Source of the DNA: Antilocapra americana
Lineage: Eukaryota; Chordata; Mammalia; Artiodactyla; Antilocapridae
Length of the DNA stretch: 64,000 bases
Direction of reading: 5' to 3'
Assembly: GCA_007570785.1 (NCBI GenBank)
Contig: ML664161.1
Location: 2,763,260 to 2,827,259, forward strand
Each line of letters begins with the position of its first letter. Position 1 is the first letter of the stretch. Of this stretch, positions 24,005 to 26,298 are shown one piece after another. The notes beneath the pieces were generated by a model. It saw only the letters and a list, made by a program, of their open reading frames with translations. It had not been told where the DNA came from and made no database searches. Position numbers and translations under genes: made by a program.

Positions 24005-24019
24005 TAAAATTTATTTTTG

Positions 24020-24145
24020 GTGTTGTATGAAAGGAGAGAAGGTTAGCACCCACCTTGATAAGGATGGAAGAGGCTCTTGGGCCTGACAACACGCATACGG
24101 TTAAGGCATTGCCACATACTTCGTGGCATCTAACCACTTTTTTTT
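24020..24145 (+). pseudogene. U6atac snRNA retrocopy, full length, fused to L1
   Basis: U6atac is the catalytic snRNA of the minor (U12-type) spliceosome. The copy starts at the first nucleotides (GTGTTGTATGAAAGG). It retains the 5'-splice-site pairing region AAGGAGAGAAGG, the U4atac-pairing region around GATGGAAGAGG, the internal CTGACAACACGCATACGG and the 3' stem-loop (TGCCACATACTTCGTGGCA), and ends AACCAC followed by T8 (24138-24145). From memory of the human RNA I count about seven substitutions. Mammalian U6atac genes use an external pol III promoter upstream, and here only AT-rich target DNA lies upstream. It is therefore probably not transcribed as a normal gene. It shares its 5' TSD with the L1 directly downstream (24146), so both arrived in one event. 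Position and identity are clear; lack of function is inferred. Confidence 0.93.
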
Positions 24146-26281
24146 AGAAATAAAAGGATTCCAGATTGGAAAAGGAGAAGTAAAACTCATTGTTTGCATA
24201 TAACATGATCCTCTACATAGAAAACCCTAAAGACTCCACTAGAAAATTAGTAGAACTAATTAATGAATATAGTAAAGTTGCAGGATGTAAAATCAACACA
24301 CAGAAATCCCTTGCATTTCTATACACTTACAATCAGAAAACAGAAAGAAATTAAGGAAACAATTCCATTTACCATCGAAACAAAAAGAATAAAATACTTA
24401 GGAATATATCTACCTAAAGAAACAAAAGACCTGTATATAGAAAACTATAAAACACCAATGAAAGAAATCAAAGAGGACACAAATAGATGGAGAAATATAC
24501 TGTGTTTATGGATCAGAAGAATCAATATAGTGAAAATGAGTATACTACCCAAAGCAATCTATAGATTCCATGCAATTCCTATCAAGCTACCAGCAGTCTT
24601 TTTCAGAGAACTAGAACAAATAATCTCACAATTTATATGGAAATGCAAAAAACCTTGAATAGCCAAAGCAATCTTGAGAAAGAAGAATGGAGCTGGAAGA
24701 ATCAACCTGCTTGCCTTCAATCTCTACTACAAAGCCACAGTCATCAAGACAGTATGGTACTGGCACAAAGACAGAAATATAGATCAATGGAACAAAATAG
24801 AAAGCCCAGAGACAAATCCACACACCTGTGAACACCTTATCTTTGACAAAAGAGGCAAGAATATACAATGCAGAAAAGACAATCTTTTTAACAAGTGATG
24901 CTGGGAAAACTGGTCAACCACTTGTAAAAGAATGAAACTAGAACACTTTCTAACACCATACACAAAAATAAACTCAAAATATATTAAAGATCTAAACATA
25001 AGACCAGAAACTATAAAATTCCTAGAGGAAAACATAGGCAAAACACTCTCCGACATAAACCAAGGCAGGATCCTCTAAGACCCACCTGCCAGAATATTGG
25101 AAATAAAAGCAAAAATAAACAAATGGGACCTAATTAAAATTAAAAGCTTCTGCACAACAAAGGAAACTATAAGCAAGGTGTAAAGACAGCCTTCAGAATG
25201 GGAGAAAATAATAGCAAACGAAGCAACAGACAAACAATTGATCTCAAAAATATACAAGCAACTCCTGTAACTCAATTCCAGAAAAATAAACGACTCAATC
25301 AAAAAGTGGGCCAAAGAACTAAACAGATATTTCTCCAAAGAAGACATACAAATGGCTAACAAGCACATGAAAAGATGCTCAACTTCACTCATTATCAGAG
25401 AAATGCAAATCAAAACCACAATGAGGTACCATTTCACACCAGTCAGAATGGCTGCCATCCAAAAGTCCACAAACAATAAATGCTGGAGAAGATGTGGAGA
25501 AAAAGGAACTCTCTTACACTGTTGGTGGGAACGCAAACTAGTACAGCCACTATGGAGAACAGTGTGGAGAGTCCTTAAAAATCTGGAAATAGAACTGTCA
25601 GATGACCCAGCAATCCCACTGCTGGGCATACACACCAAGAAAACCAGAATTGAAAGAGACACGTGTACCTCAGTGTTCATCGCAGCACTGTCTACAATAG
25701 CCAGGACATGGAAGCAACCTAGATGCCCATAAACTGACGAATGGATAAGAAAGCAGTGGTACATATACACAATGGAATATTACTCAGCCATTAAAAAGAA
25801 TACATTCAAATCAGTTCTAATAAGGTTGATGAAACTGAAGCCTATTATACAGAGTGAAATAAGCCAGAAGGAAAAGCAACAGTACAATATACTAACACAT
25901 ATATATATAGGATTTAGAAAGATCGTAATGATAACCCTGTATGCGAGACAGCAGAAGAGACACAGATGTATAGAACTGTCTTTTGGACTCCATAGGAGAG
26001 GGTGAGGGTGGGATGATATGGGAGAATGACACTGAAGCATGTAAATTATCATATGTGAAACGAATCACCAGCCCTGGCCTGATGCATGATATGGGGTACT
26101 TGGGGCTGGTGCACCAGGAAGACCCAGAGGGATGGAATCGCAGAAGGAGGTGGGAGAGGGGTTCTGAAAGGGGAACACATGTACACTCATGGCAGATTCA
26201 TGTCAATGTATGGCAAAACCAACACAATATTGCAAAGTAAAAAGTCTCTATTAAATTTTTTATAATAAAAAAACAAATAAA
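24146..26281 (+). mobile_element. 5'-truncated ruminant L1 (3' part of ORF2, 3' UTR, A-rich tail)
   Basis: About 2.1 kb of ORF2 from AGAAATAAAAGGATTCC onward carries the late reverse transcriptase and C-terminal region. Frames at 24263-24658, 24674-24898, 25352-25732 and 25772-26005 are pieces of the broken ORF2; the last includes MEYYSAIKKN, typical of the L1 ORF2 C-terminus. In-frame stops and frameshifts make it dead. The 3' UTR (TGATATGGGAGAATG, GGGGTTCTGAAAGGGG, GTATGGCAAAACC) ends in an A-rich tail. TAAAATTTATTTTTGGT at 24005-24021 and 26282-26298 is a perfect 17-bp TSD that encloses both this L1 and the upstream U6atac copy. Confidence 0.95.
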
Positions 26282-26298
26282 TAAAATTTATTTTTGGT

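Follow-up and report, generated by a model that had tools for sequence, protein, structure and literature searches.

At positions 24020-24145 of a 64,000-nucleotide stretch of Antilocapra americana DNA (contig ML664161.1; hereafter the window), a full-length copy of the U6atac snRNA lies on the plus strand, joined without a gap to a 5'-truncated L1 on the same strand (24146-26281), and the pair is enclosed by two copies of a short repeat. The Rfam covariance model RF00619 aligns to the snRNA copy over its entire length (model positions 1-126 of 126), the run of eight T at the 3' end included, with a score of 137.1 bits (gathering threshold 33) and an E-value of 9.2e-34. With a full-model score above the gathering threshold, the copy belongs by sequence origin to the U6atac family. 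An earlier note on this DNA had claimed a complete U6atac here and proposed the covariance-model search as the check; the 137.1 bits over 126 of 126 positions bear that claim out. No non-standard pair is flagged in the RF00619 alignment. Compared with the Rfam consensus, the copy carries 11 differences over its 126 positions, and 4 of these fall within the 70 positions marked as strongly conserved (upper-case). When the whole window was scanned with Rfam, U6atac was the sole match above gathering, and extending the list to E<=0.5 added only a sub-threshold SCARNA7 match. This SCARNA7-like stretch (49885-50057) reaches 30.2 bits against a gathering threshold of 65, lies over a (GT)23 repeat and is probably a chance match. 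We predict that the U6atac/L1 locus is a non-functional pseudogene.

The L1 begins at the base directly after the eight T of U6atac, which places the junction at 24145/24146. It comprises a partial ORF2, 3' sequence and an A-rich tail at approximately 26264-26281, and its reading frame is interrupted by a frameshift and stops. Its identity comes from matches to protein chains of solved structure. Three stop-free pieces, at 24184-24354, 24260-24658 and 25271-25732, match residues 698-750 (E 3.4e-13), 736-853 (E 8.2e-39) and 1062-1214 (E 6.7e-70) of chain 8uw3_A, respectively. This chain and its fellow matched chains carry the name LINE-1 ORF2 protein, and we take them to be human; for the first two pieces the top score went to 8c8j_A, a chain that bears the name RNA-directed DNA polymerase. 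All three L1 pieces submitted to the solved-structure search were matched in this way, while none of five L1 pieces gave a family in Pfam. These ORF2p matches indicate that the L1 runs in the same sense as U6atac and that its 5' end would lie near ORF2p residue 684, a position extrapolated over 41 nt and, we assume, inside the reverse-transcriptase domain. U6atac had previously been described here as joined to the 5' end of a truncated L1 ORF2, and both the junction and the start within ORF2 agree with that description.

We also considered whether this could be an active L1 with an intact ORF2 and DD motif, and rejected the idea. The element is truncated at its 5' end, and the pieces 24184-24354 and 24260-24658 lie in different frames. 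Stops close the L1 pieces at 24658 (residue 853) and 25732 (residue 1214), early in relation to the 1275 residues of the matched chain. Shortly after the L1 start, the window encodes FAYN where 8c8j_A has FADD, which we take to be the catalytic motif (the reverse-transcriptase DD motif).

The repeat around the two parts, TAAAATTTATTTTTGGT, is identical at all 17 positions in its 5' copy (24005-24021) and its 3' copy (26282-26298), both read on the plus strand. The match does not extend further leftward, and the word occurs on the plus strand of the window at these two places only. The window is AT-rich (35% G+C). As a null, 40-nt stretches of the same window were paired at random 20,000 times, and 37 pairs were dropped because their members lay fewer than 60 bases apart; among the 19,963 pairs counted, none shared a word of at least 17 nt, and the maximum, 16 nt, was reached once. 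The 5' copy ends in GT (24020-24021), and U6atac begins with these same two bases; the duplication thus measures 15-17 bp, with an overlap of at most 2 nt at the 5' junction. The claim of one 17-bp target-site duplication around both parts therefore stands, refined to 15-17 bp. At the inferred nick the bottom strand reads AAATTTTAGAATT, that is TTTT/AG, which is near but not equal to TTTT/AA and close to the L1 endonuclease motif, given as TT/AAAA (PMC13174262).

The sequence itself shows that U6atac is full-length, that the junction follows its U-run, that an L1 in the same orientation comes next and ends in an A-rich tail, and that one repeat is shared by the two sides. Since one identical repeat brackets U6atac and L1 together, both likely arrived in the same insertion. 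Our preferred reading, to which we assign a probability of roughly nine in ten, is that U6atac, joined in sense to what is now a dead, 5'-truncated L1, was likely inserted as a chimera by the L1 protein in one target-primed event. A single insertion had been proposed before, and it remains the best reading, given a 17-bp repeat that encloses the two parts together and the lack of a comparable one around either part alone. In such an event, the L1 endonuclease would have cut the bottom strand at a TTTT/AG-like site and the A-tail of the L1 RNA would have provided priming at this nick; reverse transcription would then have crossed the 3' part of L1 and U6atac up to its 5' end. One shared target-site duplication, a full-length sense snRNA, a truncated L1 and an A-tail together form the signature of U6-type/L1 chimeras (PMC13174262, PMC4476161). 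The locus also displays several features of the Group IV snRNA pseudogenes of Doucet 2015: a direct join between the snRNA and a non-LTR element, a 5'-truncated partner, one target-site duplication around both, and the full U6atac 3' end at the junction in the L1 sense.

How the two RNAs came to be joined can be approached through the two published models for sense chimeras, RTCB ligation and template switching (PMC13174262, PMC13247085). Ligation of U6 snRNA to LINE-1 RNA has been described, and the end that RTCB ligates is a 2',3'-cyclic phosphate (PMC13247085). Mature U6 carries this end, and for U6atac the same source documents processing by Usb1 rather than the end group; the two snRNAs have in common Pol III transcription, oligo-U tails, extension by TUT1 and trimming by Usb1 (PMC6265477). 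We consider it likely, by a modest measure, that RTCB would have ligated the U-tail of U6atac, with a predicted 2',3'-cyclic phosphate end, to the 5'-OH of a cut L1 RNA. Template switching is a close rival that we judge quite conceivable, if short of even odds. Here the L1 reverse transcriptase would have jumped from L1 RNA to the 3' end of U6atac RNA, within the same single insertion. This is the model given for U6 and U6atac chimeras in Doucet 2015 (PMC4476161) and its sources, and the switch point would fall here directly behind the U-run, with the snRNA kept in full. Against it, RNA ligation is described as an alternative in PMC13174262 and PMC13247085, and the L1 sequence at the junction is A-rich, so that the cDNA end would have been T-rich and would not pair with the U-tail. 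It is because of this expected mismatch that we lean towards ligation; one locus does not separate the two models.

A reading that does without a chimera is that two separate insertions produced the pair, U6atac landing first and L1 later exactly at its 3' end, or in the reverse order. Adjacent sequential events do occur, and one was suspected for a U6atac/Alu pair that has no target-site duplication (PMC4476161). At the present locus, the sole long flanking repeat encloses both parts. Searches of 40-nt flanks for a repeat around L1 alone gave a best perfect match of 8 nt (AAATAAAA), or 5 nt when the tail was left out, and for a repeat around U6atac alone the best perfect match was 5 nt. The 8-nt match is somewhat longer than chance would suggest (620 of the 19,963 random pairs reached 8 nt) and would count in favour of two events. 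However, this A/T word sits at 24148-24155, within the L1 and not ahead of it, and thus cannot be the target-site duplication of the L1 itself; a match of 5 nt was reached by 14,903 of the 19,963 pairs. Separate duplications for each part, one of the observations that the earlier note had named as contrary to its reading, were accordingly not found, the best matches being the 8 nt inside L1 and the 5 nt around U6atac. We therefore regard two insertions as very improbable. The idea that 24020-24145 is an authentic U6atac gene beside an unrelated L1 can draw on the whole RNA being kept with standard pairs, yet it is next to untenable. What precedes the RNA start is target-site sequence that recurs behind the L1. 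Positions -35 to -20 (CTGGATTTTCTTTCCA) hold, as judged by eye, no TATA box, which Pol III snRNA genes are described as requiring, and 4 of the 70 strongly conserved positions differ from the consensus.

The window holds several other features. Two further L1-like stretches lie at 45574-46281 (78% identical to the L1 studied here) and 38144-38465 (70%), and neither extends to the junction; the former is a shorter L1-like 3' end that encloses a perfect 38-bp tandem duplication (45852-45928). Within the L1 of the chimera, residues 29-94 of the piece 25271-25732 (25355-25552) also match residues 286-351 of chain 9d2f_J (E 6e-13), which is named Cilia- and flagella-associated protein 61. This suggests that the protein, or its gene model, may hold an L1-derived stretch. 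An inverted pair at 31898-32812 and 33597-34510 (918 bp, 89% identical) flanks a stretch, 32962-33591, that matches Pfam RVT_1 (E 1.3e-12), the one match among three pieces searched nearby. The reading frames near this pair look RTE-type, and the element, at 31698-34510, is presumably BovB-like. A 119-bp SINE unit is present in two head-to-tail copies at 21529-21764; we take such tRNA-like SINE copies to be Bov-tA-like. Together with the BovB-like element, they point to a ruminant genome. Finally, 25 uninterrupted C occupy 19579-19603.

Related DNA was also sought in two contig collections, genome_contigs and viral_contigs. An exact 25-base U6atac pattern had no match in viral_contigs, and a scan of the same collection with L1 peptides matched 20 stretches, none of which was confirmed. 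A 36-base L1 junction pattern was found neither in genome_contigs nor in viral_contigs. One fixed position of this pattern disagrees with the window's own sequence, so the scans sought related L1 copies and not the present one. Because both collections consist of microbial and viral sequences, they could be expected to yield little beyond contamination.

The kind of chimera seen here has precedents. Doucet 2015 observed chimeras of L1 with U6 as well as with U6atac; among 23 human U6atac copies characterised, 7 were associated with repeats, 6 of these 7 with a target-site duplication, and two U6atac copies were paired with Alu, just one of them with a duplication (PMC4476161). The same work, citing Buzdin 2003 and Garcia-Perez 2007, describes template switches as mostly joining U6 or U6atac with L1 RNA or a mobilised mRNA (PMC4476161). 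The earlier note had taken a U6atac-L1 chimera to be unusual or undescribed, and had read the locus as new evidence that the L1 pathway also takes in the minor-spliceosome RNA. Neither view holds against this record, in which L1 chimeras of both snRNAs and 7 of 23 repeat-associated human copies were already reported (PMC4476161). With human fusions on record, the present locus is an ordinary further example, and since the kind is known, the one aspect that may be unrecorded is the occurrence of U6atac in such a chimera in a ruminant host. A report of a ruminant U6atac/L1 fusion was not among the literature matches listed, in a search that covered main texts only and left subscription papers mostly outside. 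Such ruminant loci may well be present in genome annotation tracks.

As a single locus, the chimera is of small import, a clean case of a known L1 by-product. U6atac/L1 joins counted over ruminants would serve as a low-abundance control for whether the choice of U6-type RNAs depends on their 3' end or on how much of them is present. A tentative proposal, which we hold to be rather doubtful, is that this is the first ruminant U6atac/L1 chimera on record and that primates and ruminants share an ancient trait, the fusion of both Pol III spliceosomal RNAs with L1; such a trait would probably depend on the U-tail and 3'-end processing common to the two RNAs and not on RNA abundance.

Three known sets of snRNA copies come closest to the locus. 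The human U6atac chimeras are alike in that U6atac is followed by a retrotransposon-derived 3' part, mostly with target-site duplications (PMC4476161). They differ in host, human there and ruminant here, and their partners beyond the Alu pairs are not listed in the text considered here (PMC4476161). The U6 copies of cow and sheep share with our locus the union of a Pol III snRNA and a retrotransposon in ruminants; table 2 of Doucet 2015, which covers U6 only, counts 54 of 122 copies in cow and 100 of 149 in sheep as retrotransposon-associated, with a pipeline whose error in group assignment ranges from below 5% to 15% depending on the genome (PMC4476161). In that set the snRNA is the major-spliceosome U6, whereas here it is U6atac. 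The catalogue of Law and Burns 2026 is referenced to human, and U6atac is absent from its main text (PMC13174262). In structure, its U6/LINE-1 insertions, 98.3% of them in sense orientation, resemble the present locus, combining a full-length snRNA, a 5'-truncated L1 in the same sense and a target-site duplication (PMC13174262).
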